Source: Eubacterium limosum (GTDB lineage: Bacteria; Bacillota; Clostridia; Eubacteriales; Eubacteriaceae). Taken from it: 64,000 bases of DNA. The stretch is from positions 1,116,001 through 1,180,000 of the forward strand of contig NZ_CP019962.1 of assembly GCF_000807675.2 (NCBI RefSeq). Direction: 5' to 3'. Positions 7,154-57,843 of the stretch are shown piece after piece. The notes below the pieces were generated by a model. It was not told where the DNA came from and ran no database searches. It saw only the letters and a list, made by a program, of their open reading frames with translations. The stretch's first letter is position 1, and each line of letters opens with the position of its first letter. The translations under genes were made by a program, and so were the position numbers.

Positions 7154-8407
7154 ATGTTTAATACAGGAGATATCGCGTTTGTTCTGATCTGCACCATCCT
7201 TGTGTTTTTCATGACACCGGGCCTCAGCCTGTTTTACGCTGGAATGGTGCGCCGGAAAAATACGCTCAATACCATCATGTCCACGGTTTTTTGCTGCGGA
7301 CTGGCCATTGTCATGTGGTTTGTCTGCGGATACTCCCTGTCCTTCGGACCGGATGTCGGCGGTCTCGGGATCATCGGGGATTTCAGCAACGTCTTTTTTA
7401 ACGGCGTGTCCGCCTTTGAGGCTGGGCCTTATGTGGACAATATTCCCGGGGCGCTGTTTGCTTTTTTCCAGCTCATGTTCTGTGTCATCACCCCGGCCAT
7501 TATCGTGGGCTCTCTGTCCGGCAGAATGCGCTTTCCGGCAACCTTTGTCTTTGTGGGCGTCTGGCTGTTGCTGGTGTATTATCCGCTAGCTCATATGGTA
7601 TGGGGCGACGGCGGACTCATCGACGGCTTCGGCGCTGTGGACTTTGCCGGCGGCAATGTCATCCACATCAGCTCAGGTGTCTCCGGCCTGGTGGCTTGTA
7701 TCATTCTGGGCGCCAGAAAGGGCTACGGCATCAAGGAGTACCATCCCCACAACATCCCCATGTTTTTCACCGGGGCGGCTGTCCTGTGGGCCGGCTGGTT
7801 TGCCTTTAACGGCGGCTGCGCCTTGGGGGCAAATGAGCTGGCCATCCAGGCGGTTGTGAATACAGGAATCTCCTCAGCGGCGGCTATGCTGTCATGGATG
7901 TTCATCGAAGCCCTGCTCTACAAAAAAGTGACGCTCATGGGCTCTGTCACCGGCGCGATCGTCGGCCTGGTCGCCATCACGCCGGGTGCAGGCTTTGTGC
8001 CCTTTTGGTCCGCCATCATCATCGGCGCGCTGGTCAGCCCGATCTGCTACTTTGCCATGACGAAAGTCAAGGCAAAATTTGGCTATGACGATTCGCTGGA
8101 CGCCTTTGGCTGTCACGGTGTCGGGGGAATCTGGGGCGGCATCGCGACCGGTATTTTCGCCCAGTCCGCCATCAACCCCGTTGCCCAGTGGAACGGCCTG
8201 GCCTTTGGCGATTACCACCTGTTCCTAGCCCAGCTAGGCGCTATTCTGATCTCCGTGGCTTACTCCGCCGTGGTCACCGCCATCATCATGCTGGTGCTCA
8301 AGAAGGTCATGAAGGTCCGCGCATCCCTCGAAGACGAAGCCCTCGGCCTGGACATCACCGAACACGCCGAGCAGGCATATCCGGCCTTCTCAGGCATCGA
8401 CCAATGA
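7154..8407 (+). CDS. amtB: Ammonium/methylammonium transporter AmtB
   Basis: 417-residue membrane channel of the Amt/Rh family with 11 hydrophobic segments. The first is FVLICTILVFFMTPGLSLFYAGMV, and the two pore histidines appear in GNVIHISSG and FGCHGVGGIWGG. GAGGAAA precedes the ATG, 22 bases after cobW, so it probably belongs to the same operon. Amt channels also pass methylammonium, and location between C1 methyltransferase genes and the pyl operon makes methylamine or demethylation-derived ammonium plausible cargo. A PII gene follows after a long structured spacer. Confidence 0.95.
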   Translation: MFNTGDIAFVLICTILVFFMTPGLSLFYAGMVRRKNTLNTIMSTVFCCGLAIVMWFVCGYSLSFGPDVGGLGIIGDFSNVFFNGVSAFEAGPYVDNIPGALFAFFQLMFCVITPAIIVGSLSGRMRFPATFVFVGVWLLLVYYPLAHMVWGDGGLIDGFGAVDFAGGNVIHISSGVSGLVACIILGARKGYGIKEYHPHNIPMFFTGAAVLWAGWFAFNGGCALGANELAIQAVVNTGISSAAAMLSWMFIEALLYKKVTLMGSVTGAIVGLVAITPGAGFVPFWSAIIIGALVSPICYFAMTKVKAKFGYDDSLDAFGCHGVGGIWGGIATGIFAQSAINPVAQWNGLAFGDYHLFLAQLGAILISVAYSAVVTAIIMLVLKKVMKVRASLEDEALGLDITEHAEQAYPAFSGIDQ

Positions 8408-10806: not shown

Positions 10807-10835
10807 TTGACATTGCGAAAATATCGCATTATAAT
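10807..10835 (+). promoter_or_regulatory. Early promoter with embedded operator O2
   Basis: Consensus TTGACA (10807-10812), 17-base spacer, TATAAT (10830-10835). The spacer holds the 15-bp inverted repeat TGCGAAAATATCGCA (10814-10828), so repressor binding would block polymerase directly. It drives the early operon that starts at 10949. Confidence 0.9.
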
Positions 10836-10948: not shown

Positions 10949-11161
10949 ATGCCGAAAACAACCAATCAATTAACTGATTTTGGAAAATGGGTTAAAAAGG
11001 TTTTAATTGACAAAGAAATGACTGTTTCAGAGCTTGCAAAAGCCATAGGGTATTCTCAAACAATGGTTTCTAAGGTGATTCATGGAGAACGTCCTGGGCA
11101 TCGTTGTCGTGCGGAAATTACGAAATATTTATCTTCTTTAGATATTGACAAAGTATCGTGA
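10949..11161 (+). CDS. Small HTH regulator (Ner/Cro-like position)
   Basis: 70 residues, first gene of the early operon. The segment VSELAKAIGYSQTMVSKVIHG is a clear helix-turn-helix. GGGAGGTG precedes the ATG. By position it may play the role of Mu Ner or Cro and damp early and repressor transcription; no sequence evidence shows which. Confidence 0.75.
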   Translation: MPKTTNQLTDFGKWVKKVLIDKEMTVSELAKAIGYSQTMVSKVIHGERPGHRCRAEITKYLSSLDIDKVS

Positions 11162-11174
11162 AGGGAGGGAGAAC

Positions 11175-11381
11175 ATGAAGGGAAAAACAATTTTTATCAG
11201 TCTCGTTCTTGGTTTAATCCTTTGGATACCAGCAGTACAGTACGCATGTAATCAGAGAGCTGTTTTTGGCATCGGCTCAGAAATCCTCCTGCCTTTCATG
11301 TTCGTGGGTGGGGCCTATTTTATGCTTGATGTTTTTGACACGGTGAAGAATTGGTACTGGTATTACCGAAAAAAGAAGTAG
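11175..11381 (+). CDS. Small membrane protein, unknown function
   Basis: 68 residues with two hydrophobic stretches (IFISLVLGLILWIPAVQYA and ILLPFMFVGGAYFMLDVF) and a basic tail YYRKKK. The start is the ATG at 11175 behind AGGGAGGGAG. The UAG stop codon overlaps the first bases of the first hammerhead-like element, so cleavage would occur 24 nucleotides after the stop. I do not recognise the family. Confidence 0.6.
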   Translation: MKGKTIFISLVLGLILWIPAVQYACNQRAVFGIGSEILLPFMFVGGAYFMLDVFDTVKNWYWYYRKKK

Positions 11382-11438
11382 TCGAAACGGCGGGAAATCG
11401 CCGTCTGTCGGGAATGGCCGCCCGGCACTGAAGAGACA
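11380..11438 (+). ncRNA. Hammerhead ribozyme candidate 1 (type II)
   Basis: Core in circularly permuted type-II order. GAAA at 11384-11387. Stem III is 11388-11393 with 11398-11403 closed by a GAAA tetraloop, and A11387 pairs with U11404. C11405 is at the cleavage position. Stem I is 11406-11412 with 11421-11427 (one G-U). CUGAAGA is at 11428-11434, where the variable core position is A. Stem II is 11381-11383 with 11435-11437, only 3 bp. Predicted cleavage after 11405 leaves a 50-nt leader before the gene at 11456. Confidence 0.85.
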
Positions 11439-11455
11439 GGCTAGAAAGGATAAAA

Positions 11456-11740
11456 ATGTTTTTTAAAACAGGTGATTTTGTGCAGCTAGCGAATAAGCAT
11501 GTATTTGAAGTGGTGTACGCTGATGAAAAAAAGGCTGTTTGCTTATTTCTGCACGGGGGTAAAAAGCGTGGATATTTTTATAGCGATCATACAGCGGTTA
11601 TCGCAAATGAGGTTCGATATTACAAAAATGCTCATTGGCTAAAAAAGATTCCCAAAATAGATAAAATCAACGAACTATCTTGGGAACCTTTAGAGACACA
11701 ACTTAATTATACAATTGGTCAAGAAACTTTGTGGGCATAA
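11456..11740 (+). CDS. Hypothetical early phage protein
   Basis: 94 residues, soluble, beginning MFFKTGDFVQLANKHVF. A GAAAGGA ribosome site lies just downstream of the first hammerhead element. The N-terminal part resembles a small beta-barrel (KxGDFVQL...FEVVYADEKKAVCLF), but I cannot assign a family. Its 3' end overlaps the opposing gene 11719-11925 by 22 bases. Confidence 0.55.
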   Translation: MFFKTGDFVQLANKHVFEVVYADEKKAVCLFLHGGKKRGYFYSDHTAVIANEVRYYKNAHWLKKIPKIDKINELSWEPLETQLNYTIGQETLWA

Positions 11741-11925
11741 ACTTCCACTTCGTAATCGCAACCGTCTTTAAAAAAGTTGTGAAGGAGTTGATCCACTTCA
11801 TAAACAGGGCCACCAGCACTTAAGGATACTTGTTCGCCAATTTTTGGCAGGCGCTTAACAGAGCGCGATTTGTTCACAGATTTTTTACCATCTTTAAGAT
11901 GAAAAAATACTTTTGTACCAGACAT
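11719..11925 (-). CDS. Small antisense-oriented phage gene, unknown
   Basis: 68 residues, basic N-terminal half (VFFHLKDGKKSVNKSRSVKR) and acidic C-terminal half. AAAGGAGT precedes the ATG on the minus strand, which supports it as real. It is transcribed against the early operon and overlaps the tail of the preceding gene by 22 bases, so its mRNA would be antisense to the early transcript. No family recognised. Confidence 0.55.
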   Translation of the reverse strand: MSGTKVFFHLKDGKKSVNKSRSVKRLPKIGEQVSLSAGGPVYEVDQLLHNFFKDGCDYEVEVYAHKVS

Positions 11926-12009
11926 TTTCCAGACTCCTTTCCTGTTATTTCAGCGTTGCAGGCTGATACTATTAGTGTAACAGGATCTAAGCGGAATGTA
12001 AAATAACAT

Positions 12010-12068
12010 AGTCGAAACGGCGGGAAACCGCCGTCTGCCGGGAATGGCCGCCCGACACTGATGAGACT
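12010..12068 (+). ncRNA. Hammerhead ribozyme candidate 2 (type II)
   Basis: GAAA at 12014-12017. Stem III is 12018-12023 with 12028-12033 (6 bp, all Watson-Crick, GAAA loop). A12017 pairs with U12034, with C12035 at the cleavage site. Stem I is 12036-12042 with 12051-12057 (one C-A mismatch). CUGAUGA is at 12058-12064. Stem II is 12010-12013 with 12065-12068 (4 bp). Cleavage after 12035 leaves a 50-nt leader before the gene at 12086, the same length as for copy 1. Confidence 0.88.
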
Positions 12069-12085
12069 GGCTAGAGAGGATAAAA

Positions 12086-12301
12086 ATGATTAAAGAAGGA
12101 CACATCCATTTAGACTACAAGGAAAACAGTGATCCAACATTAGACCTCGATGCGGATAGCATGGAAGAAATTGTCGTAATGGTTGGAATTATTTTAGAAA
12201 AGGTCGGAGCCTTATTCAGCGATGACCGTGCGTCTTTTGACATTTATAAAGATTTTATACTTGGGAAAATTTATTCACTTGAAGAGGGTGAACATATGTA
12301 A
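12086..12301 (+). CDS. Hypothetical acidic early phage protein
   Basis: 71 residues, strongly acidic, with a predicted helical middle (MEEIVVMVGIILEKVGALF). GAGAGGA lies 6 bases before the ATG, directly behind the second hammerhead element. Unknown family. A third hammerhead element follows 18 bases after the stop. Confidence 0.55.
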   Translation: MIKEGHIHLDYKENSDPTLDLDADSMEEIVVMVGIILEKVGALFSDDRASFDIYKDFILGKIYSLEEGEHM

Positions 12302-12319
12302 AAAGAGGTAGCCCCCAAA

Positions 12320-12379
12320 TGTCGAAACGGCGGGAAACTGCCGTCTGCCGAGGGCTGACCACCCGGTACTGATGAGACA
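12320..12379 (+). ncRNA. Hammerhead ribozyme candidate 3 (type II)
   Basis: GAAA at 12324-12327. Stem III is 12328-12333 with 12338-12343 (one G-U, GAAA loop). A12327 pairs with U12344, with C12345 at the cleavage site. Stem I is 12346-12350 with 12364-12368, then a bulged A and two more pairs. CUGAUGA is at 12369-12375. Stem II is 12320-12323 with 12376-12379 (4 bp). The stem I sequence differs from copies 1-2 yet still pairs. It precedes the transposase start at 12404 by a 58-nt cleaved leader. Confidence 0.85.
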
Positions 12380-12403
12380 GGTCGATGAAAGGCAGGTGAT
12401 ACA

Positions 12404-14416
12404 GTGGAATGTTTAACGGTCAAACAAGTTGCAGATATTAAAGGCTGTTCACAACAATACATTAGAAAAATAATCGGGCAAGGAAAAATAACTGCTATTG
12501 AAGCTGAAGAGCCAATTAACCATCGTGTTCAATATCTGATTCCCATTGAAACATTGCCTGAGGATATTCGTCAGAAATACTATACCAGTATTGCCACAGA
12601 TGGCCCGCCGGTTCCGATTCCGAAAGAAAAGGCGGAAAAGAAGGAGAAGCCCAAAGCCAATAAGCCTTTTGAAGCCTATAACCAGAAAGAGCGTGAGGAA
12701 ATTATGCAGTGGTGTGAGATTTTGGAATTATGGCAGCAAAAGCGTAACTGCTTTGAATCAAAGGTAGAGGGAGATCGAAACGTGGTCGGGTACCTGAAAT
12801 GTGAGTACCCGGACAAGCAGATTTCTGTGGATATTCTCTACCGGAAATATGCGGCGTACAAAGCCGGTGATTTCGGCGGTCTTCTGGATGGCCGGGGCGG
12901 CTGGAACCGCGGTAAGAGCGCAGTACCAGAAGTCTTATTTCTCCAGTTTCTCTACTTTTATCTTGATGATCGGCAGCCAGCAGTGAGCGTTTGCTATCGG
13001 GCCACCGTTGATGCAGCTAAAGAACTGTATCCGGAGATGGTGGCTCAGTTTCCAAGTGAACAGAGCTTTCGGCGCAAGCTGAAAAAGGAAGTACCAGAAG
13101 CCGTAGTACGATATATGCGCTTGGGCGAAAAAGAATGCTTCGATAAAGCGGCACCATATATTGAACGTTGGTATGATGATACTGAAGCCAATGACGTCTG
13201 GATCGCGGATAACCATACCTGGGATGTGATGGTGATGCGGGATGATGGCAGCGAGGTCGTGCATCGCATGTACCTGACGGCTTTTCTGGATGCCAAGAGC
13301 GGCGTCCTGACCGGCTGGAACGTAACCGACAATCCCTGCTCGGACAGCACGATCTTTGCCCTGCGTCATGGAATACTGCGGCACGGCATTCCCAGGGTCT
13401 GCTACTTTGACAATGGGACCGAGTTCCTGACCTACGACATCGCAGGCCGGGGACACCGGACCCGGAAAAGCCAGCGGGATGTACCCAAGCCGGAAACCAT
13501 TCTGGCAAAGCTGGGCATTGAGATGAAAAACGCCATTGTCCGAAACGCCAAGGCCAAGCCCATTGAGCGGACCTTCTCCACCTTAAAGGAGCATATTTCC
13601 AAGCTTCTGACCGGGTACTGCGGCGGGAAGCCATCGGAACGGCCTGAAAGCCTGAAGCGCCAACTGAAAAACGGCAATATCCCGGTTGACAGTGAATTCC
13701 GAGAGATTATTGACACGTTGATTGAAGGCCAGTACAATCAGGAACCTTACGGAGGAACTGAAAAAGCGTATCAAGGCATGAGCCGCCTGGAAGTCTGGAA
13801 CGAAAGCATCCAACATACCGTCCAGCGCATTGCCAGCGAAGAGGATCTGAACCTGATGCTCATGCGAAACACAAGGTACCAGACTGTAGGGCGTAACGGG
13901 GTCAAGGTTGAGATCGCCGGAGAAAAACTTTGGTATAGCAACGCAGAAACCTGGCAGCATGTCGGCGATAAAGTCTACGTGCGCTATGATCCAACGGATT
14001 TAAAAACCGTCCGAGTTTACGATCTGGAAGACCGTTTCCTTTATACCTGCGAACTGGAACGCGAGCTGCTGCTGAACTTCATTGAAGATGATGTGGATGC
14101 GCTGGCCGATGCCAATGAAAAAGTCCGCGCCAGAAAGAAAGCCATCCGGAACTATGCCAAAGGCATCACGGATCGGCTGCCCGCAGAATATAAAATAGAC
14201 ATGCTTGATCTGAGCATCCGTAAGGCCAAGCTTGCCCGCGAGGGTGTGAACATTGCACAGTCCAGCGTGATTGAACCCATCCGGATTGATCCGGCCAAGG
14301 AAACCGACCATCTGCAGGAGCTGCCCATGGCCTCCGGTGCGGACAACGTGGTATCCATTGATATCGAGCGCATGAACGCCCGGGCAGAAATGCGAAAAAG
14401 AAATAAAAGAAGATAA
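12404..14416 (+). CDS. Mu-type DDE transposase
   Basis: 670 residues. An N-terminal winged-helix/HTH (TVKQVADIKGCSQQYIRKIIG) binds the phage ends. The RNase-H-fold catalytic core carries the acidic residues in IADNHTWD and CYFDNGTEF and a downstream Glu in AKPIERTF. A Mu-transposase C-terminal beta-barrel (YDPTDLKTVRVYD) follows. GTG start behind AGGCAGGTGAT. It catalyses integration and replicative transposition together with the ATPase at 14449. Confidence 0.93.
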   Translation: MECLTVKQVADIKGCSQQYIRKIIGQGKITAIEAEEPINHRVQYLIPIETLPEDIRQKYYTSIATDGPPVPIPKEKAEKKEKPKANKPFEAYNQKEREEIMQWCEILELWQQKRNCFESKVEGDRNVVGYLKCEYPDKQISVDILYRKYAAYKAGDFGGLLDGRGGWNRGKSAVPEVLFLQFLYFYLDDRQPAVSVCYRATVDAAKELYPEMVAQFPSEQSFRRKLKKEVPEAVVRYMRLGEKECFDKAAPYIERWYDDTEANDVWIADNHTWDVMVMRDDGSEVVHRMYLTAFLDAKSGVLTGWNVTDNPCSDSTIFALRHGILRHGIPRVCYFDNGTEFLTYDIAGRGHRTRKSQRDVPKPETILAKLGIEMKNAIVRNAKAKPIERTFSTLKEHISKLLTGYCGGKPSERPESLKRQLKNGNIPVDSEFREIIDTLIEGQYNQEPYGGTEKAYQGMSRLEVWNESIQHTVQRIASEEDLNLMLMRNTRYQTVGRNGVKVEIAGEKLWYSNAETWQHVGDKVYVRYDPTDLKTVRVYDLEDRFLYTCELERELLLNFIEDDVDALADANEKVRARKKAIRNYAKGITDRLPAEYKIDMLDLSIRKAKLAREGVNIAQSSVIEPIRIDPAKETDHLQELPMASGADNVVSIDIERMNARAEMRKRNKRR

Positions 14417-14448
14417 TCGGCGGGGGTGCCGAAATGAAAGGAGCAATA

Positions 14449-15369
14449 ATGAAACCACTGAGTGAGGAACAAAAAAAGGTATTGGAACAATTTGACCAGC
14501 TTGCAAAAACCGAGGGAAGCCAGAACAAGGCCTGCCAGAAGGTTGGCATCAGTAGTGCCATTATATCCGGCATCCGCAGCGGGAAATATGAGGGCGATGC
14601 GGATAAGCAGATACAAAAGCTGCAGGACTATTTTTCCGTGAAGGATGAAGCCGTTGAAAGCTACGTCAACAGCGGCTACGTGGAAACCAGCATCTCAAAA
14701 AAGGTGTATGGCTATATCCGAAACGCACAGATCAAGGGCGGCCTGATCGCCCTATCCGGGGACGCCGGGATTGGAAAGACCCAGGCGATCCGGAAATATG
14801 TACACGATCATCCCTATGATACGATCTGGATCACCGCAAACCCCTGTTTAAACAGCGTTAAACCCGTTTTAAAAGCCCTTTGCCGGGAGTTGAACGTCAT
14901 CGCCCGAACCAATGATGATATGTACATTGGCATCCAGGACAAGCTGCGGGACGGGATGGTGCTGGTATTCGATGAGGCCCAGCATCTGCACCTGAAGACC
15001 ATTGAGGTGCTGCGGGGCTTTTCAGACTATTTCTCAGATAACGGCATGACCCTGGGGATCATCTTTATCGGGAATGTCGAAACCATTAATAAGTTTGGCG
15101 GCAAGCAGGAGGCCGTATTCCACCAGATCAGCAACCGCACCAAACAGAAACCCGTGCTCAAGGCCACGGACATCACTCGGGAAGACATTGAGCAGCTTTT
15201 TCCAGAGATTGCGGCGGAAGCATCCTCCGTGGATTTTCTCTGGGGCATTGCCCAGAGCGCCCAGGCGATCCGTGGGGCCACCAACCTGTACAGCAACGCC
15301 TTTGACAATGGGGATACCAGCTATGAAGGGCTGGTTGCCATGGCGAAACATATGGAAATGCGCTTATAA
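14449..15369 (+). CDS. MuB-like AAA+ transposition ATPase
   Basis: 306 residues from the ATG at 14449, chosen because AAAGGAG lies seven bases ahead; an upstream in-frame ATG at 14434 overlaps that site. The N-terminal HTH (QNKACQKVGISSAIISGIRSGKY) resembles MuB. Walker A is GDAGIGKTQ and Walker B is VLVFDEAQHL. MuB selects target DNA, stimulates the transposase and gives target immunity. It follows the transposase gene by 32 bases, as in Mu. Confidence 0.92.
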   Translation: MKPLSEEQKKVLEQFDQLAKTEGSQNKACQKVGISSAIISGIRSGKYEGDADKQIQKLQDYFSVKDEAVESYVNSGYVETSISKKVYGYIRNAQIKGGLIALSGDAGIGKTQAIRKYVHDHPYDTIWITANPCLNSVKPVLKALCRELNVIARTNDDMYIGIQDKLRDGMVLVFDEAQHLHLKTIEVLRGFSDYFSDNGMTLGIIFIGNVETINKFGGKQEAVFHQISNRTKQKPVLKATDITREDIEQLFPEIAAEASSVDFLWGIAQSAQAIRGATNLYSNAFDNGDTSYEGLVAMAKHMEMRL

Positions 15370-15373
15370 CGGA

Positions 15374-15389
15374 TGGGGCTTCGGCCCCA
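15374..15389 (+). other. UUCG-capped hairpin after the MuB-like gene
   Basis: TGGGGC-TTCG-GCCCCA, a 6-bp stem with a very stable cUUCGg tetraloop, five bases after the stop codon at 15369. No T-tract follows, so it is more likely an mRNA 3' stabiliser or processing site than a terminator. Confidence 0.5.
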
Positions 15390-15478
15390 CCCCTATCAAA
15401 TGCAGGCAAGGCCGGTCACAACCCCGGAAAAATGCAGAGTGGATAGAGGTCTTTAAAAATGGAATAGGAGGTGCAAAA

Positions 15479-15733
15479 ATGACGATGCACAAAAAAGTAA
15501 CCAGTAAGGGCGGTCTGACCATTCCGAGAGAAGCAAGGGCGGAGCTTGGGCTTTTTCCAGGCCAGGCTCTTGACCTGGAGATTGAACAGGATCGCCTGGT
15601 GTTGAAAAAACACATCAAAACCTGTCGTTTCTGCGGCAGCCCCGAGGATATCCGGACAGCGATGGGCATTGATTTCTGCCGGTCCTGTGGCCTTGAACTG
15701 GCGGATTGTATTTATTTAGAATCGGGGGATTGA
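15479..15733 (+). CDS. SpoVT/AbrB-type swapped-hairpin protein with zinc ribbon
   Basis: 84 residues. The first half (KKVTSKGGLTIPREARAELGL) is an AbrB/MazE-like DNA-binding swapped hairpin. The second half holds a CxxC...CxxC zinc ribbon (CRFCG and CRSCG). The start at 15479 follows AGGAGG; the longer open frame from 15074 overlaps the ATPase gene and is not used. Probably a phage transcription regulator or a transposition accessory. Confidence 0.75.
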   Translation: MTMHKKVTSKGGLTIPREARAELGLFPGQALDLEIEQDRLVLKKHIKTCRFCGSPEDIRTAMGIDFCRSCGLELADCIYLESGD

Positions 15734-17975: not shown

Positions 17976-18016
17976 AAAAATCTTCCGAAATACTTCATTA
18001 GAAGACCAGAATCATA

Positions 18017-18056
18017 ATAAGGTATCATTGTGACAACGATGATGCCTTATTTTTTA
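18017..18056 (+). terminator. Early-operon terminator
   Basis: 15-bp stem (two G-U pairs) 18017-18031 with 18036-18050, loop GACA, then five T. It lies 42 bases after the Mor gene. Confidence 0.88.
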
Positions 18057-18749: not shown

Positions 18750-19298
18750 ATGGCAAAGAAAAATCGAAAACACAGCAAAATTGATAAACTCCCCGCCGAC
18801 ATCAAGGAAACCGTCGAACAGATGATGCAGGCGGATTTTACATATGCAGAAATCGCGGACTACATCCGGGACTGTGGTTTCGAGATTTCCGTGACCAGCG
18901 TCTGGCGGCATGCCACCAACCTGAACGCCACCGTGGAGACCCTGCGCATGGCCCAGGAGAATTTTCGTGTCATTATGGATGAAATCGCGCGCTATCCGCA
19001 GCTGGATACCAGCGAGGGGATCATCCGGCTGTTGTCTCACCATGTGCTGGAAGCCATTAATAACATGGATGAAGAGCAATGGCAGAACATTGATCCGATC
19101 AAGCTGATTAATCAGAGTAACGCGCTGATCCGTGCCGCCAGCTACAAGAATAACATGGATCTGAAAAACAAGGATATTATGGAAGCTGGGATGGAACAGG
19201 TCAAAACCCTGGTTTTTGAAGCCATGGCAAGGGAGAACCCCAAGCTGTACGCTGAGGTTACCAAGTTCCTATCCGAAAAGCAGGAGGACCTGAAATGA
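18750..19298 (+). CDS. Small terminase-like protein (DUF3486/Gp27)
   Basis: 182 residues. The N-terminal half holds an HTH (KETVEQMMQADFTYAEIADYIRDCG, then SVTSVWRHA) and the C-terminal half is helical, as in DUF3486 proteins of Mu-like phages, which recognise the packaging start. The large terminase follows after the NusG-like gene. The stop overlaps the next ATG by four bases (ATGA at 19295). Confidence 0.78.
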   Translation: MAKKNRKHSKIDKLPADIKETVEQMMQADFTYAEIADYIRDCGFEISVTSVWRHATNLNATVETLRMAQENFRVIMDEIARYPQLDTSEGIIRLLSHHVLEAINNMDEEQWQNIDPIKLINQSNALIRAASYKNNMDLKNKDIMEAGMEQVKTLVFEAMARENPKLYAEVTKFLSEKQEDLK

Positions 19299-19786
19299 GA
19301 GAAATCTATGTGCTGCACGTGATGAGCGGTATGGAGCTGGCGGTGCAGGAGCGCCTGAAGTGTGAAGGCCTGACCGAGACCATCATCCCCATGGAGGAAC
19401 GCCTGGAACGTTTCCGCGGGGATTGGATCACCCGAAAGCGGCTGCTCATGCCAGGCTATGTGTTTGTCTATCTTGAAATGAACACTGATCAATATTACAA
19501 AGCCTGGAACATTCCGGGCGTGATCCGGTTCCTGGGCGTGGGAAAGCCCAGCGCACTTTCTGAAGATGAAAAAATGCAAATATTCTGGCTTTACGGAGAT
19601 CGTGGGTTGTTTAAACCATCAACCATACGCAGTAGGCCAAACGGTCAAATTGAAGTAATGGACGGCCCGCTGGTGGGACATGAAAAAGACATTGTGAAGC
19701 TTGACCGCCACCGGAAAAAGGTGAAGGTGCGGATGACCTTTTCCGGAGAACCGATTGAACTTACCGTATCCGCATATTTTGTATAG
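19295..19786 (+). CDS. NusG/LoaP-family processive antitermination factor
   Basis: 163 residues. An N-terminal NGN domain (IYVLHVMSGMELAVQERLK, then RKRLLMPGYVFVYLEM) is followed by a C-terminal KOW domain (IEVMDGPLVGHEKDIVKLDRHRKKVKV). Length and sequence fit specialised NusG paralogues such as LoaP, which let RNA polymerase pass terminators in one long operon. It is the last gene before a 328-base leader that contains intrinsic terminators, then a 23-kb late operon. No Mu C-like late activator was seen, so this protein may be the late switch. That role is inference. Confidence 0.85.
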   Translation: MREIYVLHVMSGMELAVQERLKCEGLTETIIPMEERLERFRGDWITRKRLLMPGYVFVYLEMNTDQYYKAWNIPGVIRFLGVGKPSALSEDEKMQIFWLYGDRGLFKPSTIRSRPNGQIEVMDGPLVGHEKDIVKLDRHRKKVKVRMTFSGEPIELTVSAYFV

Positions 19787-20114
19787 GTGTTCTGGCCGTT
19801 TTTTCTACCTTTTTCGGCCTTAACATAAAGCTACACCCCCATTCTTACTTTTGCAAGGGGAACCCGATTGATGCGTCTCGGGTTCTTCTTTGCAGAATGA
19901 CATACGAACCCGGAGCAGTCTTTTTTTAAAAAAGTCTGAATGGCGCAGCATGCCCTGAAACCGGTGGGTGGTGTTCTCTGAAAGCGTTCAAAAACGTTAA
20001 AACGGCGTTTAAAAATGTTCAAGAAATAAAATTTGATACGATGTTTATGTGCAAGGCCAAAACTCCGATACGGGGCAATTTGAGCCTTATTTTTGATGGA
20101 AGGAGGCATGGCCT
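19787..20114 (+). promoter_or_regulatory. Late-operon leader with terminators
   Basis: No gene. A terminator at 19860-19890 has an 8-bp GAACCCGA/TCGGGTTC stem plus TTCTTT. A branched hairpin at 20053-20088 (AAGGC/GCCTT outer stem, inner CTCC/GGGG) is followed by TTATTTTT just before the terL ribosome site. Between them, around 19985-20020, two related GCGTT...AAAA segments form a loose repeat. This layout is what a LoaP/NusG-type antiterminator would act on. Confidence 0.6.
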
Positions 20115-47163: not shown

Positions 47164-48603
47164 TTATAATATATTTCGATATTTTTCATGAATATAAGGA
47201 TTAAGGAGTTCGGCCTGTTCTTTTGTTATATCCGCAGGGATAAAGCTTTCCAGTCTTTTCTTAACCGCATCTTCGACCCGGTCGTTTACAGAGAGGCTGC
47301 CTTTATTTTGCCATTGGTTTGGGTCGTCCTTATTAAAATATTTTGGCAGATAAACTTCTTCCCGGTACATTTTTGGCGTGCGTCCTTTTAAGAAAACGCC
47401 ACGAGGACCTGTTTTTTTCAAAAGGTCAAAGCAGAAGTTTTCATCATTGCAGTTAATCCCCTCGGTCATCCGGCAGGCCATATGATGTATTTCTTCATCG
47501 ACTAAGAATTTTTCGAAATCAGATACATTAAAAGAACCCATACAGCCGCAGGTGTGGAAGACAATATCGGCACCGGCATTGCGTGTTGTCAAAATATTCA
47601 TCATTGACTCCGCGCCAGCCTGCACATCTAGCTCCTTCGCATCACTCAGGGAACCTCCTGTTCTAAAAGGCAGGCCATACCGGTCTGCCAGGCCGGCAAC
47701 AGCATAGATGACTAATGAGCACTCTGGGGAGCCGATCGCCAATTGGATGGTACGCATATCGGTTGCCGCAGAGGTATTTCCATAGACCACATTGGCATCT
47801 GGATTGACCAGCTTGGCGAGGGTGTAACCAGCCAGTATTTCAGCGTTTGTCATTGCGAGCATTGATGCTAATGAAGGAGGCGCTGTCATCAATGGCATTG
47901 CACAGGGAGTGATGATCATTGCCTGCTGTGTTTCGGCTAAAATAAAAATACGTTCGATAGGATCGTGGTCTAACGTTAAGGGTGATAGGGTGTTTACGAC
48001 ATAAGCGCTGTGAGTACCCTCTGTTCCCTCAAAACGGTTAACAAGCTCAAGGCTTTTTCGGTAAACCTCCGAGCCTTTTTCTTTACCATCGATGATAAAT
48101 GTGTTTGGGGCAGACATCAGCATGGGTTTTTGACTGTATTTTAAAACCATCGCGACATTGCCAAAGACTTTCTGATCTTCAGAATAAGAATCATCATAGC
48201 TCAGGAAGTAATTCATAGTAGATACCTTTGTAATATCGCTGGTGTCCGAAAGCTTGAATTGGTCAATGACATCCTGATTTGTCATTTTTTTAATACCACC
48301 GTGGTTATGATGTCTGTACACATTTCCTAAAATTGGAACACCGTATTGCTGGCCGCTCCCGATTTCAAGATCGCCCTTACAGGATTTGATGGTAAACTGT
48401 TTTTTTGCATATTTTAAAGCCTCGTTGAGAAGGGATTCGGGAATAAACACTGTTTCATTTTCGACCTTCGCGCCATATTTTTTGAAAAGCGACAGGGCAC
48501 CTTCGTGTTCAAATTTAATGCCTATTTCCGATAGAATGCGAAGCGTATATTCGTGAATTTTTTCAATTTTTGATTTGCTGATATAATTTTCATAATTTTT
48601 CAT
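47164..48603 (-). CDS. MttB-family methyltransferase without amber codon (mttB1)
   Basis: 479 residues with no internal UAG, so it is a non-pyrrolysine member of the trimethylamine methyltransferase superfamily (relatives act on glycine betaine, proline betaine, carnitine or butyrobetaine). Conserved stretches include PILGNVYRHHNHGG, LTLDHDPIERIFILAE, PDANVVYGNTSAATDMRTIQLAIGSPE and GAESMMNILTTRNAGADIVFH. It would demethylate a quaternary amine onto a corrinoid protein not encoded here. Follows BCCT1 by 23 bases. Its operon has lost its upstream promoter region (see 50898 junction). Confidence 0.92.
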   Translation of the reverse strand: MKNYENYISKSKIEKIHEYTLRILSEIGIKFEHEGALSLFKKYGAKVENETVFIPESLLNEALKYAKKQFTIKSCKGDLEIGSGQQYGVPILGNVYRHHNHGGIKKMTNQDVIDQFKLSDTSDITKVSTMNYFLSYDDSYSEDQKVFGNVAMVLKYSQKPMLMSAPNTFIIDGKEKGSEVYRKSLELVNRFEGTEGTHSAYVVNTLSPLTLDHDPIERIFILAETQQAMIITPCAMPLMTAPPSLASMLAMTNAEILAGYTLAKLVNPDANVVYGNTSAATDMRTIQLAIGSPECSLVIYAVAGLADRYGLPFRTGGSLSDAKELDVQAGAESMMNILTTRNAGADIVFHTCGCMGSFNVSDFEKFLVDEEIHHMACRMTEGINCNDENFCFDLLKKTGPRGVFLKGRTPKMYREEVYLPKYFNKDDPNQWQNKGSLSVNDRVEDAVKKRLESFIPADITKEQAELLNPYIHEKYRNIL

Positions 48604-48626
48604 GATGAGACTCCTTTGAATGAATT

Positions 48627-50138
48627 CTAAATTTTATTTTCCCTCTTTAAACTCAGGAACAGGCTGAGTAACAAGAGGAGTATGACGATAATATAAGGTA
48701 AGGTGAAGAAAACAGAGACCTGCTGCATTGCATTGATGCCGCCTGAAAAAATAAGCATACAGGCTAAAGCGCCGATCAGAATACTCCATAAAACCCTGAA
48801 AAAATGACTGCGGATTTCTTCTCCTTTGCAGCTCATGGTAACAAGCACCTGAGTAGATGCGTCTGCGGAGGTAATGAAGAAAATAGCCAGGCTGATCATA
48901 ATCAGTACACAGGATATCAGCGGTACTGGCAAATTTTGAAGCAATGCAAAGATACCGCCGGTGCTGTCCTTAAGAACCGCTTCGGCGATAAGGCCATTGC
49001 CGTCCTGGCTCATTTTTAAAGCGCTTCCCCCAATGACGGAGAACCAAATGCAGCTAAACAGCGTGGGGATTAATAAGACAACCGTGACAAATTCACGGAT
49101 GGTGCGCCCTTTGGAAATTTTTGCGATAAAGATTCCGACAAAGGGAGACCAGAGAATCCACATTGCCCAGTAAAAGATTGTCCAGTTACTCATCCAGTTG
49201 TAGCCTTTGGCTGTTTCTATAGTCTGCTGTGCATCAGTAAAGAAGGAGAGGCTGATAAAATGAGATAAGTAACCGCCAATGCCTTCAATAAGTGTATTTA
49301 CGCAATAGATGGTTGGTCCAAAAATAAAGACAAAAATAATGAAAGCTACTGCGAGCTGCATGTTAAAGTCGCTGATGCGTTTCATGCCTTTTTCAATACC
49401 GAGCATTGATGAAAGGGTAAATGCAACTGTTCCTGCAATAATGACGCAAATGGTAGTGAGCAGTGTATTGGGAATTCCAAATACAATGTTTAAGCCTGAG
49501 CTGATTTGAAGCGCTCCCATTCCAAAGGAAATTGAAATGCCCAAAAGTGTGATGATAATGGTGAGGGCATCAAGGGAGATATTCAGCAAGCGGTGTTTTT
49601 TGCCTGGAAATAAAGGGGCAATACAGGAACTGACCAGAGGGCTTGTCTTTTTCCGGTAATGGAAATAAGCGAAGGGCAATGCCACAGAGGTATAGATTGC
49701 CCAGGGATGAATGCCCCAATGAAAGAAAGTAATATGCATACTTTCAGTAGCCGCAGCGCCTGTCCAGGCCTGCGCAGTCAGCGGATCCATAAAATGAGAC
49801 ATGGGCTCGGTAACGCCGAAAAAGATAAGGCCAACGCCCATCCCAGCGCTGAACATCATTGCGAACCAGCTTAAATTACTAAATTCGGGTCGGTCTGTAT
49901 CTTTGCCTAAGCGGATACGCCCATATTTACTGAAAGCAATAAATAAACAGAAAACAATAATGATGTCAGCGGCTAAAACAAAGCACCATTTGAAGTTCTG
50001 CATAAGAAAATTAAATATTTTTTCAGAAATCTGACCCATTTGGACAGGTGCGATAAAAAAACTGAGGACTAAAAGTCCGCAGACCAGAAAAGCGGTCATA
50101 AATACAGGCTTGTCCATTTTTTTGAGTAATTCTTTCAT
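48627..50138 (-). CDS. BCCT-family betaine/carnitine/choline transporter (BCCT1)
   Basis: 503 residues, 12 membrane segments. The GMGVGLIFFGVTEPMSHF glycine-rich stretch and WAMWILWSPFVGIFIAKISKGRTIREFV are family hallmarks. It likely imports the substrate of mttB1. Transcribed after the MFS remnant with a 31-base gap and before mttB1. AAAGGAG site precedes the ATG. Confidence 0.93.
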   Translation of the reverse strand: MKELLKKMDKPVFMTAFLVCGLLVLSFFIAPVQMGQISEKIFNFLMQNFKWCFVLAADIIIVFCLFIAFSKYGRIRLGKDTDRPEFSNLSWFAMMFSAGMGVGLIFFGVTEPMSHFMDPLTAQAWTGAAATESMHITFFHWGIHPWAIYTSVALPFAYFHYRKKTSPLVSSCIAPLFPGKKHRLLNISLDALTIIITLLGISISFGMGALQISSGLNIVFGIPNTLLTTICVIIAGTVAFTLSSMLGIEKGMKRISDFNMQLAVAFIIFVFIFGPTIYCVNTLIEGIGGYLSHFISLSFFTDAQQTIETAKGYNWMSNWTIFYWAMWILWSPFVGIFIAKISKGRTIREFVTVVLLIPTLFSCIWFSVIGGSALKMSQDGNGLIAEAVLKDSTGGIFALLQNLPVPLISCVLIMISLAIFFITSADASTQVLVTMSCKGEEIRSHFFRVLWSILIGALACMLIFSGGINAMQQVSVFFTLPYIIVILLLLLSLFLSLKRENKI

Positions 50139-50169
50139 TTAAGCTCCTTTCACAATGAAGATAAGCTGT

Positions 50170-50898
50170 TTAGCCGGTTTGTTTTTTTGTGTGCTTTTTA
50201 TGAATCAGCAGGCAGGCGACAATGCCGAGAGCACTTGCTACGCCCAGTAAAATAAATATTTTATTAAAGCCCGCGTTAATGTTTCCGGCGGATGTGGCGG
50301 CGTCAATCCACGATCCCGCAATAGGGCTGACGAGAATCTGAGGAATAAAACCAATGCAGGAAATAACACCGGTACACATCCCGGTCATTTCGATGGGAAT
50401 GCCAGCTTCGCCCATAACAGACCAGTAGGTTGATTTGATGGCGTTAAAGCAGAGCGACAAAAACAGTGTAAGTGCGATGGATAAGGCGACTACTTTGCTG
50501 CTGAAAATGAGCGAAAGGCCAAGAATGCAGGTAAGAGCAAAGAAGATTGAGACGGCCTTACTTTTGGTCGACATTTTATCCGCAATGATGCCGCCAATAA
50601 TTCCTGAAAGAAAAACAATGATGTAATTTCTGAAAATAGAAATGGTACTTGCAATGCTTTCGGGAAGCTTGAGAATCTGCGTTGTATAAGTGCCCAGATA
50701 GCCGGTACAGCACATATAAACCGTAATGCCGCAGGCGATAACAAAGATGGTCAGCCAAGTTCCTTTAAGCTTAAGGGCGTCGATCATACGATAGCTTTTT
50801 TCGCCAGCGGAGGTCTGGTCAGGTTCTTTTGTATCTTTTGGCAGTACAATGGCCAGTGCAATTGCAATGATGATAAAGACCGCGACATTAACCCATAT
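50170..50898 (-). pseudogene. MFS transporter remnant, N-terminal half deleted
   Basis: The minus frame is open from 50898 (IWVNVAVFIIIAIALAIVLPKD) and matches the C-terminal ~235 residues of the intact transporter at 51463-52719, e.g. SLCFNAIKSTYWSVMGEAGIPxEMTG. About 180 N-terminal residues are absent, and sequence upstream of 50898 belongs to an activator gene on the other strand. A protein from ATG 50787 (205 residues) would have only half the helices and should not transport. Confidence 0.9.
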
Positions 50899-51372
50899 GA
50901 GGATCTATACTGGCGGATCAATGCAATTTCATCTACGATTCCACCTTTGAGGAAACGCAAAGCCGATATCGTGCCTCTGGCCTTCCATTTCCTGAAACTA
51001 AACAATAAAACCCATACCATACAGAAGTTTTTTGCGCCGGAGTTTTTACCCTTGCTGCTGCAGTATGACTGGCTGGGGAATGTTCGGGAATTAAAAAATG
51101 TGATTGACCGCTGTTATATTCTTTCCCCTGGGTACACGATCTATCCCGATAAGCTGCCGAAGGATATTTCACTTTTGGAAGACAGTTACTATGAAAGTTC
51201 CTCCAATGACTATGACTCAATTATGGATTCTTTTGAACGGCAGCTTATACGAGAGGTGTTTAAAAAAGAAAAAACCATCGCGAGTGTGCAAAGAGAACTC
51301 GGACTGTCCCAAAATAAGGCTTATCGGCTTGTTAAAAAATATTGTAGGGATTTGATAAAAAAAGACAGTTGA
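50899..51372 (+). pseudogene. Sigma-54 activator remnant, C-terminal third only
   Basis: From 50899 the frame reads EDLYWRINAISSTIPPLRKRKADIVPLAFHFLK and continues through the Fis-type HTH (TIASVQRELGLSQNKAYRLVKKYC). This matches residues 307-461 of the activator at 54518. The PAS domain and Walker motifs are lost. The junction with the MFS remnant is at 50898/50899. A product from TTG/ATG codons near 50947 would be a bare DNA-binding domain. Confidence 0.9.
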
Positions 51373-51381
51373 AAAATATAT

Positions 51382-51449
51382 CCGGGAACAACCCTTTGGA
51401 AGCTTTACGAACTGCTGACAAAGGGTTGTGGTGTTTATACTTTTCCCGG
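51382..51449. terminator. Nested hairpin between convergent remnant and MFS gene
   Basis: ACAACCCTTTG (51388-51398) pairs with CAAAGGGTTGT (51419-51429), and outer CCGGGA/TCCCGG arms enclose it. It can end transcription from both sides. Confidence 0.7.
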
Positions 51450-51462
51450 CTATTGTGTCTTA

Positions 51463-52719
51463 TCAATTATCAAATTTCTTTACAGCTTTTTTCCACTCTC
51501 TGTCAACCAAAAAGCTTGCAAGGATACCGAGAACACCGGCGACAGCAATTAAAATAAAAATTTTATTAAAACCGATTTGAAGATTGCCGGCAGCTGCAGC
51601 AGCATCAATCCAAGAGCCTGCAACAGGGCTTACAATAATTTCAGGGATAAAGCCAATACAAGAAATAACACCCGTACAGATACCGGTCATTTCCAATGGA
51701 ATGCCAGCTTCACCCATGACAGACCAATAGGTTGATTTGATGGCATTGAAGCACAGTGACAGAACCAGTGTTAGAATGATTGACAAGGCAATAATCTGAC
51801 TGCTGAAAATCAGGAACAGGCTAACAGCTGCTGAACAGGCAAAGAAAATGGCAACAGCCTTGCTTTTAGTCGATAACTTGTCGGCAATGATACCACCGAT
51901 GACACCAGACAGAAAAACAATGATATAATTGCGGATAATTGAAATAGCGCTGGCGATATTTTCCGGCAGGTTAAGGATTTGGGTGGTATAAGTCCCCAGA
52001 TAGCCTGTACATGCAATGTAAATGGTGATACCACAGGCGATGACAAAGATTGTCAGCCAGGTACCTTTTAATTTAAGTGCATCGACCAGTCGGAATTTTG
52101 CCACTGCTGAAGGGTTGGTATCTTCCTTGATATCCTTCGGCAGGATAAAAATAAGAGCGATGGCAATGAGGATGAAAAGGGCCACATTTACCCAGATTAC
52201 AGCCTGGAAGCCAAGGGTTTCGTTGGTAAAAACCCCAAGAACCCACAGACATAAGAATGAGATAACCGTGGCGATAACACCTCTGAAGGCTTCGCTCAAG
52301 CCGAAGATTTTCCCCTGTTCGGACTCATCACCGAGCATTCTTAAATATTTTAAATAGGGGGACCAGAACGTCAGAATGCTGAAAATCGAAAAGAAGCCAT
52401 GAATAATTAAAATGATGGTGTAGGAGGGCAGCAAAGAGTAAATAAGCGAAGTAGCTGCCATTCCGAAGGCGCTGACAACCAACAGGGCTTTAGAGTTGAA
52501 CTTGTCAGCCATATAACCGCTGGGAATATAGCAGATAAAATTGATAAAAGCCACAGATGTGCCGATAAAACCGAGCTGGGTATTGGTGAGCCCTAAAATA
52601 CGGATCATCTGGTCATAGTAGGATAAACGAAAATATGGAATGAAAAACACCATGCCGGCTAAGAAGCTCAGCAGTACCAGAATAAGATTGCGCTTACCTT
52701 TGGACATTGTCTGATTCAT
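51463..52719 (-). CDS. MFS transporter, module B
   Basis: 418 residues, 12 membrane segments; the loop 2-3 motif GYMADKFNSKALLVVSAFG is the MFS signature. Transcribed after mttB2 (gap 113 bases), so it probably moves a methylated amine or its demethylated product. Full-length counterpart of the remnant at 50170. Start behind GGAGG. Confidence 0.92.
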   Translation of the reverse strand: MNQTMSKGKRNLILVLLSFLAGMVFFIPYFRLSYYDQMIRILGLTNTQLGFIGTSVAFINFICYIPSGYMADKFNSKALLVVSAFGMAATSLIYSLLPSYTIILIIHGFFSIFSILTFWSPYLKYLRMLGDESEQGKIFGLSEAFRGVIATVISFLCLWVLGVFTNETLGFQAVIWVNVALFILIAIALIFILPKDIKEDTNPSAVAKFRLVDALKLKGTWLTIFVIACGITIYIACTGYLGTYTTQILNLPENIASAISIIRNYIIVFLSGVIGGIIADKLSTKSKAVAIFFACSAAVSLFLIFSSQIIALSIILTLVLSLCFNAIKSTYWSVMGEAGIPLEMTGICTGVISCIGFIPEIIVSPVAGSWIDAAAAAGNLQIGFNKIFILIAVAGVLGILASFLVDREWKKAVKKFDN

Positions 52720-52832
52720 GTGTGAAACCTCCTTTTAAGGTTAAGAAGGAACTGTATGAAAGACGGAGGCTTTCATACAGGTTCCCTGAAAGGCAGAATG
52801 ATCGAATGTGAAAAAATTTTTAGCAATAGACA

Positions 52833-54287: not shown

Positions 54288-54309
54288 AGTGTTTTCTCCT
54301 TAAGCAAAT

Positions 54310-54323
54310 CATTACCGGTAATG
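54310..54323. promoter_or_regulatory. Perfect 14-bp palindrome in the mttB2 leader
   Basis: CATTACCGGTAATG, between the sigma-54 promoter and the mttB2 start. Possible operator or activator site. Confidence 0.4.
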
Positions 54324-54350
54324 TCATTGATTTGTACATGTCATTTAGTA

Positions 54351-54368
54351 AAGCAATAATTATGCCAA
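54351..54368 (-). promoter_or_regulatory. Sigma-54 promoter of mttB2
   Basis: On the minus strand TTGGCATAATTATTGCTT: GG and GC separated by ten bases, matching the -24/-12 consensus. About 64 bases upstream of the mttB2 start. Confidence 0.85.
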
Positions 54369-54467
54369 CTTGGTAAACGGCAGTTTTAAAGGGAAAAGAT
54401 GCAAAAAAATTAAGCGTTTAAACTAGAATTAAATTAAATAATGATTTTTTTCATCTAAAATTAACTA

Positions 54468-54496
54468 TTGTCTGTATAGGGTTGCAGTGGTATGAT
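54468..54496 (+). promoter_or_regulatory. Sigma-A promoter of the module B activator
   Basis: TTGTCT (54468-54473), 17 bases, TATGAT (54491-54496), 22 bases before the ATG at 54518. Confidence 0.7.
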
Positions 54497-54517
54497 AACG
54501 GAAAGGGGGGAGACAAC

Positions 54518-55903: not shown

Positions 55904-55904
55904 C

Positions 55905-55943
55905 AAAAAATCCTCGGAATCTGTGAAAGTCCGAAGATTTTTT
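55905..55943. terminator. Bidirectional terminator after the module B activator
   Basis: AAAAAATC-CTCGGA pairs with TCCGA-AGATTTTTT (one mismatch). A- and T-tracts serve this gene and the convergent BCCT2 gene. Confidence 0.85.
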
Positions 55944-55969
55944 GAATAATTTAAATGCTATAAAGTTTT

Positions 55970-57577: not shown

Positions 57578-57657
57578 TTTGTTTTCAGGCTGCTGCAGCT
57601 TAGGCCCGCAACAGCCTTCCCCCTTCTTATATTTTCTTACTTACTATCTATAAACAC

Positions 57658-57673
57658 GCAATAAACATGCCAA
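57658..57673 (-). promoter_or_regulatory. Sigma-54 promoter of BCCT2
   Basis: Minus strand TTGGCATGTTTATTGC, GG-N10-GC spacing, about 80 bases upstream of the BCCT2 start. Confidence 0.85.
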
Positions 57674-57717
57674 AGCAGTAAAGGGGAAAAAGGGGAAGAT
57701 TTCAAGGGTTTTAAAAT

Positions 57718-57765
57718 GATTTTCCGAAAAGTGACGAGTGAAAATCGCTCAAATGAATGATTTTC
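57718..57765. promoter_or_regulatory. Candidate upstream activator sites
   Basis: GATTTTC (57718-57724), GAAAATC (57740-57746) and GATTTTC (57759-57765); the last two lie in an inverted arrangement GTGAAAATC...GATTTTC, then CAC a few bases later. Located between the two divergent sigma-54 promoters, where a shared activator would bind. Confidence 0.5.
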
Positions 57766-57843
57766 GTTCACATCAAAGCAAATATGGACTGGTCTGTGTT
57801 TGAAAAAAAGCGTCCAAACGCCCTGCAATGGGCTTTTTTGATT

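Follow-up and report, generated by a model that had tools for sequence, protein, structure and literature searches.

Introduction

What purpose do three self-cleaving RNA motifs serve between the early genes of a single prophage? The question is raised by a 64,000-nt stretch of the Eubacterium limosum genome (contig NZ_CP019962.1, positions 1,116,001 to 1,180,000 of the forward strand; hereafter the window, whose coordinates are used unless a locus number precedes them), in which three candidate type II hammerhead ribozymes lie upstream of the transposase gene of a Mu-like prophage. A 2017 review counts what hammerheads and related motifs do in prokaryotes among the open questions of the field (PMC6155905), and a 2023 paper describes the reason for the association of ribozymes with Mu-like phage genes as still unknown (PMC10085705). 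The processing of phage transcripts into operon- or gene-length mRNAs had been proposed already in 2011 (PMC3088659). From sequence comparison, we argue that the hammerheads quite probably cut the early transcript in cis between cistrons and leave hairpins at both of the new ends. What we add to the 2011 proposal is the idea that selection may act on the new mRNA ends themselves.

Identity and structure of the window hammerheads

The initial annotation, made from the letters of the window, had proposed three type II hammerheads, and a covariance-model search agrees. Run over the whole window with the 4227 families of Rfam 15 at their curated cut-offs, cmscan returned exactly three matches, all to Hammerhead_II (RF02276, cut-off 37 bits) and all on the plus strand: hammerhead 1 at 11380..11445 (52.1 bits, E 7.5e-8), hammerhead 2 at 12010..12075 (44.4 bits, E 8.1e-6) and hammerhead 3 at 12320..12386 (38.1 bits, E 3.6e-4), with E-values that refer to the window and all 4227 families. 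The cuts are predicted after C17, at 11405^11406, 12035^12036 and 12345^12346, and with the next genes starting at 11456, 12086 and 12404 the leaders would measure 50, 50 and 58 nt, in agreement with the annotation. A search of the entire 4,422,837-base genome with RF02276 at E ≤ 1, in which 150 of 674 first-look candidates were scored, found only the three window copies. The same search gave matches in 5 of 14 control genomes, none of them above the cut-off; at E ≤ 0.01 no match to either hammerhead II or twister-P1 was found in the 14 control genomes. Of 67 genomes from the order, two have Hammerhead_II at E ≤ 0.001: that of the window and another from its genus.

The core elements CUGANGA, GAAA, the A15.1-U16.1 pair and H17 are present in the sequence of all three copies, and in the cmscan alignment stem II is open and stems I and III are closed by loops in each. 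A pseudoknot pairs the loop of stem I with the tail 3' of stem II, joining 11415-11419 to 11439-11443 in copy 1, 12045-12049 to 12069-12073 in copy 2 and 12357-12360 to 12380-12383 in copy 3. The paired letters are UGGCC with GGCUA in copies 1 and 2 and GACC with GGUC in copy 3, such that a compensatory change (GGCC/GGCU versus GACC/GGUC) separates the copies. The starts of the elements stand as first annotated, while their ends move 4-5 nt further, to the pseudoknot's last letters at 11443, 12073 and 12383. Folded as single sequences, all three copies form stems I and III, and only copy 2 has stem II in place; the folding energies are unremarkable against shuffles (z -1.2, -1.0 and -2.3), and the case for identity therefore rests on the covariance model and on relatives.

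The prophage qualifies as Mu-like by a MuA-type DDE transposase gene (12404..14416, plus strand; PF09299, PF09039, phrog_310 at E 1.7e-111) followed by a MuB-type ATPase gene (14434..15369, plus strand; phrog_296 DNA transposition protein at E 2.6e-50, AAA_22), and it also carries a Ner-like regulator and a divergent repressor-like gene. An element nearly identical to hammerhead 3 precedes MuA in L019, a prophage locus of the same genus. Taken together, the sequence evidence supports the identification of the array as type II hammerheads of a Mu-like prophage early region, for which covariation over 81 relatives, described below, gives further backing.

A twister-P1-like element downstream of MuB

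The early region holds a second class of putative ribozyme. In a permissive scan, 15393..15446 (plus strand), between the MuB-type gene and an AbrB/MazE-like gene, matches twister-P1 (RF03160) with 43.8 bits and E 2.3e-6; since this lies below the family cut-off of 67.2 bits, we label the element twister-P1-like and do not count it as a member. Stems P1, P2 and P4 and most of the conserved loop letters align to the model with no broken pair. Relative to RF03160 the element lacks P3, and an A stands where the model has U immediately before the predicted cut, which homology with the twister cut site would put at 15398^15399. A stable hairpin with a UUCG loop (15374..15389, plus strand, in a fold of 15370-15452) precedes the window element, whereas the Rfam model starts at P1 and has no such hairpin. 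Twister-P1 is found in two of 398 genomes of the phylum, the window's own and one other, whose copy (in L108) also lies, by eye, upstream of an AbrB-like open reading frame (ORF). The pseudoknot, the twister-P1-like element and a minus-strand ORF 5' of hammerhead 2 are additions to the initial annotation.

Conservation and covariation among relatives

Relatives were collected by MuA alignment and regardless of RNA; the best 80 of 108 were kept and correspond to 79 IMG/VR loci. Rfam family searches covered 50 of 83 records, of which 49 had been found via MuA, one via MuB and none via RNA; the remaining records were covered by two models of our own, R1 and R2, built from 7 hammerheads and 3 twisters and searched over 89 Mu-like sources (1.29 Mb). 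The Rfam searches placed hammerhead II in 40 of the 50 records at E ≤ 0.01, 36 of them above the cut-off, and twister-P1 in 42 at the same E-value, one of them above the cut-off. R1 and R2 found 81 hammerheads, none with an E-value above 3.2e-7, and 71 twisters, none above 0.02, and three further twisters from Rfam alone bring the sample to 74 twisters and 155 ribozymes in all, every one of them on the strand of MuA. A MuA pattern search gave one close relative, a prophage of Fervidicella metallireducens (56% identity in the best segment). Upstream of MuA it has four hammerhead II matches, each above the cut-off; its MuB is followed by two twister-P1 matches (56.5 and 52.3 bits, below the cut-off), and it also has a RAGATH-28 above the cut-off of that family. 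The hosts seen belong to the window's genus, to Fervidicella and to other members of the window's class and phylum.

For covariation, the 81 hammerheads were aligned to the model and the pseudoknot pairs were added afterwards, so the alignment leans toward the model for the stems and not for the pseudoknot. Standard pairs occupy 95.8% of pair cells, against 72.5% in shuffles and 26-51% when the columns are slid by 1-3; both-sided changes occur in 19 of 22 pairs (16.0 in shuffles) and compensatory changes in 384 cells (111 in shuffles). The pseudoknot, which is absent from the search model, is paired in 92.5% of cells and shows both-sided changes in 4 of its 5 pairs. The core is close to invariant, with GAAA in 81/81, the A15.1-U16.1 pair in 80/80 distinct rows, C at position 17 in 77/81 (A in the other 4) and CUGANGA in 74/81. 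The other seven hammerheads read CCGANGA, a U-to-C change of the core in elements that are otherwise paired, and are those of L008 3824, L051 3743 and 4613, L086 3479, L042 2, L017 13826 and L072 877, the last two being identical. An extra U stands between CUGANGA and stem II in 46/81 hammerheads (alignment A5, column 93) and is lacking from the window copies.

Among 88 loci with a MuA match on the examined strand, 46 carry both classes, 4 hammerheads only, 7 twisters only and 31 neither. This count omits L018 (6.5 kb, with MuA on the other strand and no ribozyme match) and repeats of the same contigs (L004, L021-L025 and L050); identical MuA rows (L015/L046, L017/L072, L083/L084 and L009/L075) reduce it to 84 distinct ones. 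On the MuA tree the ribozyme state requires 5 changes, compared with 25.7 in shuffles (0 of 500 as low), and all 57 ribozyme-bearing loci fall within one group of 64 rows with a support of 87 that is not among the starred values, in what is a quick tree with long branches. The 24 loci outside this group (348 kb) gave no match to the same models.

Within the 50 records, type II was the only hammerhead model to pass its cut-off, in 36 of them, and the type I and type III models had no match above cut-off in any record; the one match below cut-off for each, at E about 0.01, we take as chance. The type III model is built on plant sequences and may be weak for phages. At cut-off, nine ribozyme-bearing loci contained only hammerhead II, RAGATH-28 and one twister-P1, and in nine of the 31 loci that lack both classes (136,503 bases scanned) cmscan matched no family at all. 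Six of the 50 records lacked both classes in the Rfam searches. One of them, L009, is among those nine loci, and a permissive scan of the other five found RAGATH-28 in three and, in the Mu-like contig L037, which has neither hammerhead II nor twister-P1, a Twister-P5 at 7539-7592 (48.4 bits, cut-off 37.6). A sub-threshold microRNA match in these five records was set aside as chance.

Placement at gene junctions and exchange of ribozyme classes

Ribozyme-bearing loci usually follow one order: hammerhead or hammerheads, MuA, MuB, small genes, twister or twisters, an AbrB-like gene and a Gam-like gene. Upstream of MuA lie 76 of the 81 hammerheads (one more, in L065, if the nearer start is used), and 71 of the 74 twisters lie downstream of MuB. 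At the pre-MuA junction (72 loci with more than 150 nt visible), 49 loci have a hammerhead as the closest ribozyme within 600 nt, 2 have a twister and 21 have none; at the pre-AbrB junction (48 loci, within 80 nt) 26 have a twister, one has a hammerhead and 21 have none. A loose Shine-Dalgarno-like start with an ORF of at least 50 codons follows 125 of 150 ribozymes, counted from 25 nt inside the element to 60 nt past it and given without a null expectation; L016 and L017, with 5 ribozymes, were left out. In 71 of these 125 (34 hammerheads and 37 twisters) the next gene, with cargo genes read by eye, is neither MuA, MuB, AbrB nor Gam.

The placement is what operon punctuation would call for, intercistronic and on the sense strand with intact ORFs on both sides, the exceptions being hammerhead 2 and 5 of 130 ribozymes with a spanning ORF. 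The initial annotation had put each window element between the end of a gene and the next ribosome site; this description fails for copy 2, whose upstream neighbor is the minus-strand ORF at 11719-11925. An upstream ORF was recognized for 55 of the 81 hammerheads, and in 33 of these its stop codon lies between 3 nt before stem II and the first base of stem II. Of the 14 stops that reach this first base 13 are UAG, as in window copy 1, where the UAG of the preceding gene falls within the first letters of the hammerhead. No upstream stop lies past +21 (the cut of copy 1 is at +25), in a search that reached +25 and did not count run-through ORFs. Twisters are spaced otherwise, 59 of 65 recognized stops ending 5-28 nt before P1.

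The two classes also change places. A twister occupies the pre-MuA junction in L074 (56.8 bits) and L091 (55.4 bits). Before AbrB, L035 has a twister but its sister L029 a hammerhead (55.6 bits). No ribozyme separates MuA from MuB in 86 of the 88 loci; of the other two, L064 has a twister there (44.1 bits) and L076 a hammerhead (53.5 bits by our own model). The displaced twisters of L074, L091 and L064 score below the RF03160 cut-off. These three loci form one clade with L073, which has neither class, and so the pre-MuA twister may reflect a single event; as that clade is sister to the rest on the MuA tree, the change could have run in either direction.

A hairpin abutting the twisters

Cutting of a P1-type twister leaves just the 5' strand of P1 upstream, and for this reason a hairpin was sought 5' of the twisters, the test being prompted by the window's own UUCG hairpin. 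The strict form asked for a perfect stem of at least 5 pairs, no more than one of them G-U, whose end lies at most 3 nt from P1. It was passed by 58 of 74 twisters, 48 of them with at least 6 pairs (41 if P1 is placed as the model aligned it), and 55 of the 58 hairpins differ in sequence. Elsewhere the test was passed at 0-12% of sites shifted by 20-150 nt, at 4 of 80 hammerheads, at 780 of 10,600 random positions (7%) and at 3,098 of 34,400 positions 60-99 nt before other starts (9%). A relaxed test on minimum-energy folds, from which 4 of the 74 twisters were dropped as having no cut-site motif, was passed by 60 of 70 twisters and 16 of 80 hammerheads, against 519 of 1,720 positions before other gene starts and 505 of 1,780 random ones; mean energies were -10.7 kcal/mol for twisters, -2.9 for hammerheads, -4.9 for other starts and -4.6 for random positions.

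By eye, the hairpin is present at the displaced twisters of L074, L091 and L064 and recurs at both twisters of a further genome found later by family search; in L029 it does not adjoin the displaced hammerhead. The hairpin goes with the twister, not with the gene. An intrinsic terminator at this site is ruled out, as no T run follows.

Proposed role and alternative explanations

The type II form is the sole hammerhead permutation whose topology places closed hairpins (stems III and I) flush with both sides of the cut. In the mechanism that we propose, each ribozyme would fold as the early transcript emerges and cut fast; one bimolecular type II construct cleaved at more than 1.2 per min at 0.5 mM Mg2+ (PMC3088659). 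Hammerheads and twister together would split the early RNA into units holding the Ner-like gene with a small putative membrane ORF, cargo ORF 1 with the antisense stretch, cargo ORF 2, MuA with MuB, and the AbrB-like gene onward. Whichever class makes the cut, the mRNA on its upstream side would terminate in a hairpin bearing a 2',3'-cyclic phosphate, and the mRNA on its downstream side would open with a 5'-OH on a folded leader that precedes the Shine-Dalgarno site. Each unit would gain its own stability without host nucleases, and the junctions would also allow cargo genes to be gained and lost between ribozymes. Intercistronic mRNA cutting, the role assigned by the initial annotation, fits both the anatomy of the window and the comparative pattern of junctions, single strand and class exchange, and its further suggestion that the ribozymes set separate mRNA stabilities is plausible. 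Sequence comparison shows what the elements are, their conserved core, covariation, strand and junction placement, and their conservation and class exchange over a clade of Mu-like phages; we infer both that cutting takes place in the cell and that the benefit comes from the ends so made. The wider claim, that this is a clade-wide punctuation selected for its ends, draws on the occurrence of type II only, on the pairing of twisters with an abutting hairpin that follows the twister, and on the interchange of classes at the same junctions; we give it about even chances.

Several observations weigh against these conclusions. Hammerhead 3 is just 1.1 bits above the RF02276 cut-off, while the window's twister (43.8 against 67.2 bits) and the twisters of 41 of the 42 records fall below that of RF03160. 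The 31 of 88 Mu-like loci with neither class, BalMu-1 included, mean that the function is dispensable in the wider group, and the loci share kinship, which makes the counts non-independent events. The class exchanges come from five loci, of which L074 and L091 may be one event, and five of 130 ribozymes lie within a longer ORF preceded by a Shine-Dalgarno site. The strict hairpin test is failed by 16 of 74 twisters, among them the window's own, whose UUCG hairpin ends 4 nt from P1 as Rfam aligns it; in some others the hairpin is a few nt off, and the second copies in L031 and L028 have none worth the name. The relaxed fold test separates twisters from random positions less well, and the hairpin could aid folding of the ribozyme by stacking on P1 instead of serving as an mRNA end.

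In a rival reading, active ribozymes would be kept chiefly as cassette boundaries, their repeated DNA recombining cargo genes in and out and the cutting only insulating insertions. In L019, whose flanks are 89-93% identical to the window's, a single hammerhead combines the left flank of copy 1 with the right half and flank of copy 3 (92.6% identity up to 11440, 89% from 12321); 940 bp with two hammerheads and the cargo ORFs are present in one prophage and absent from the other at the ribozymes, gain and loss being indistinguishable. L030/L071 and L007/L071 differ as the window and L019 do, and the MuA homology block starts inside a hammerhead or at most 10 nt from one in 15 of 21 hand-picked close pairs, a count without a null, with its edge elsewhere in the other 6. 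Recombination repeats, however, could do without a catalytic core. Twister and hammerhead have no sequence in common, and still each core is maintained and the two are exchanged; moreover, conserved ribozymes next to fast-changing cargo would yield the same block edges without recombination there. We regard a chief role as cassette boundaries as unlikely. A switch coupled to translation, in which a ribosome at the upstream stop unfolds the hammerhead and cutting reports upstream translation, would account for the stops at stem II in 33 of 55 hammerheads and for the preference for UAG at its first base, but tight packing of operon genes would produce the same overlap, and the switch fails both for copy 2, with its minus-strand ORF upstream, and for the twisters, whose recognized stops mostly end 5-28 nt ahead of P1. 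It seems improbable to us, distinctly more so than the cassette boundaries.

Neighboring ribozymes might instead release gene-sized RNAs that are later circularized or religated, an idea suggested by the several hammerheads that flank single genes in the window and its relatives. Spliced or circular products of such arrays were sought in the 2011 study and none was detected (PMC3088659), and 26 of 50 hammerhead-bearing loci have a single hammerhead; the idea is very improbable. Least credible of all is that the elements have lost their activity or were matched by chance. The low scores of copy 3 and of the twister would fit this, and Rfam matches alone are no proof of activity, but the 384 compensatory cells in 81 sequences, the near-invariant core, the single strand and the lack of any match in the 24 neighboring-clade loci (348 kb) speak against it. 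Cutting in cis between cistrons is the preferred explanation. The junction map, the class exchange, the restriction to type II and the twister hairpin lead to direct predictions about the ends, the hairpin and the change in mRNA, and the elements would supply natural ligand-free parts for dividing bacterial operons into units with defined ends.

Other features of the early region

A probable early promoter (TTGACA-17 nt-TATAAT, 12/12 consensus match) lies at 10807..10835 on the plus strand, in a scan that returned 17 sites against 13.6 (sd 3.7) in shuffles, not a significant excess. It is followed on the same strand by a Ner/Cro-like regulator with a helix-turn-helix (10949..11161; phrog_1468 transcriptional repressor at E 7e-15) and by a small ORF, hydrophobic by eye, with no Pfam family over cut-off (11175..11381), whose UAG stop overlaps hammerhead 1. 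Cargo ORF 1 (11456..11740, plus strand, 94 aa) has no Pfam family and matches phrog_20291, of unknown function, only at E 0.044; cargo ORF 2 (12086..12301, plus strand, 71 aa) has neither a Pfam nor a PHROG family. The AbrB/MazE-like gene 3' of the twister (15479..15733, plus strand) matches PF04014 and phrog_4681. A hairpin of 16 bp followed by a T run (18016..18051, plus strand) is a possible end of the early transcript, from a terminator scan with 12 sites against 12.3 in shuffles. Together with the promoter at 10807-10835, this hairpin could mark the limits of the early transcript. Between apparently the same two genes, the window (18016-18051) and the Fervidicella prophage (L005 13629-13703) each have a long AT-rich hairpin; the L005 copy weakly matches microRNA models and the window copy scores as a terminator. 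The Fervidicella record has its MuA gene divided over two overlapping frames (L005 8017-10004).

Inside the plus-strand early operon, the candidate ORF at 11719..11925 on the minus strand (68 aa, no family) has a promoter-like site at 12002-11974, on the side facing hammerhead 2. Minus-strand ORFs just 5' of a hammerhead also occur at L005 6247-6696 and 7500-7895 and in L008, L036 and L060. Ribozymes often part antisense stretches from the next gene.

Further downstream, RAGATH-28 is found at 19862-19949 (plus strand) with 43.7 bits, below its cut-off of 45.3. The match immediately follows a phage NusG-like gene (19295-19786), precedes a terminase-like gene and has a counterpart at L005 15528-15615. 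RAGATH-28 occurs at E ≤ 0.01 in 39 of the 50 Mu-like records, 22 of them above cut-off; the NusG-like match ends 9-206 nt upstream of it in 35 of these 39 loci, and the remaining 4 show no NusG-like match within the stretch examined. One idea is that a LoaP/NusG-type antiterminator of the late genes uses RAGATH-28 as its RNA site. Beside the prophage, 47164-60844 holds several MttB-like methyltransferase genes, BCCT-like transporters and sigma-54-type regulators, judged by eye from ORF translations.

Comparison with known systems

The glmS ribozyme is controlled by a metabolite and lies in the 5' leader of a host gene, whereas no ligand is suggested for the phage ribozymes. What it shares with the role proposed here is that a cut in a bacterial mRNA alters gene expression (compare PMC6154101).

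Closer precedents are the hammerhead arrays in prophages whose cutting in vitro was published by Perreault et al. in 2011 (PMC3088659), where the arrays of C. scindens, A. caulinodans and A. tumefaciens gave the expected products. Like the window's array, these are of type II, have the pseudoknot between loop I and the 3' tail and occur in several copies flanking varying small phage genes. The same paper remarks that the genes flanked by hammerheads are not constant, with which the cargo present in the window and absent from L019 agrees. An association of ribozymes with phage genes in general is also on record (PMC4604425), and hammerheads and twisters are both overrepresented around Mu-like phage genes and close to one another (Roth 2014 and Weinberg 2015, via PMC10085705). 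The structural class of the ribozyme may not matter, according to the citing paper (PMC10085705). Given these published arrays and the published Mu-like clustering (PMC3088659, PMC10085705), the window's array is known in kind, and the hammerhead array itself is ordinary among those described.

The available passages of the literature searched (PMC3088659, PMC4604425, PMC10085705, PMC6154101 and PMC6155905) mention neither an abutting hairpin nor a junction map. The original reports of the association lie outside this literature, and the novelty of the hairpin is therefore not established. Within that scope, the twister composite, the class exchange at homologous junctions and the abutting hairpin do not appear. 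The present array differs from those of 2011 (PMC3088659) in that its hammerheads keep to junctions of a single Mu-like operon that recur across a clade, and in that they are combined with twister-P1. And where the Mu-like association had been described as enrichment and proximity (PMC10085705), the exchange of classes is here located at named homologous junctions and the hairpin that accompanies the twisters is measured.

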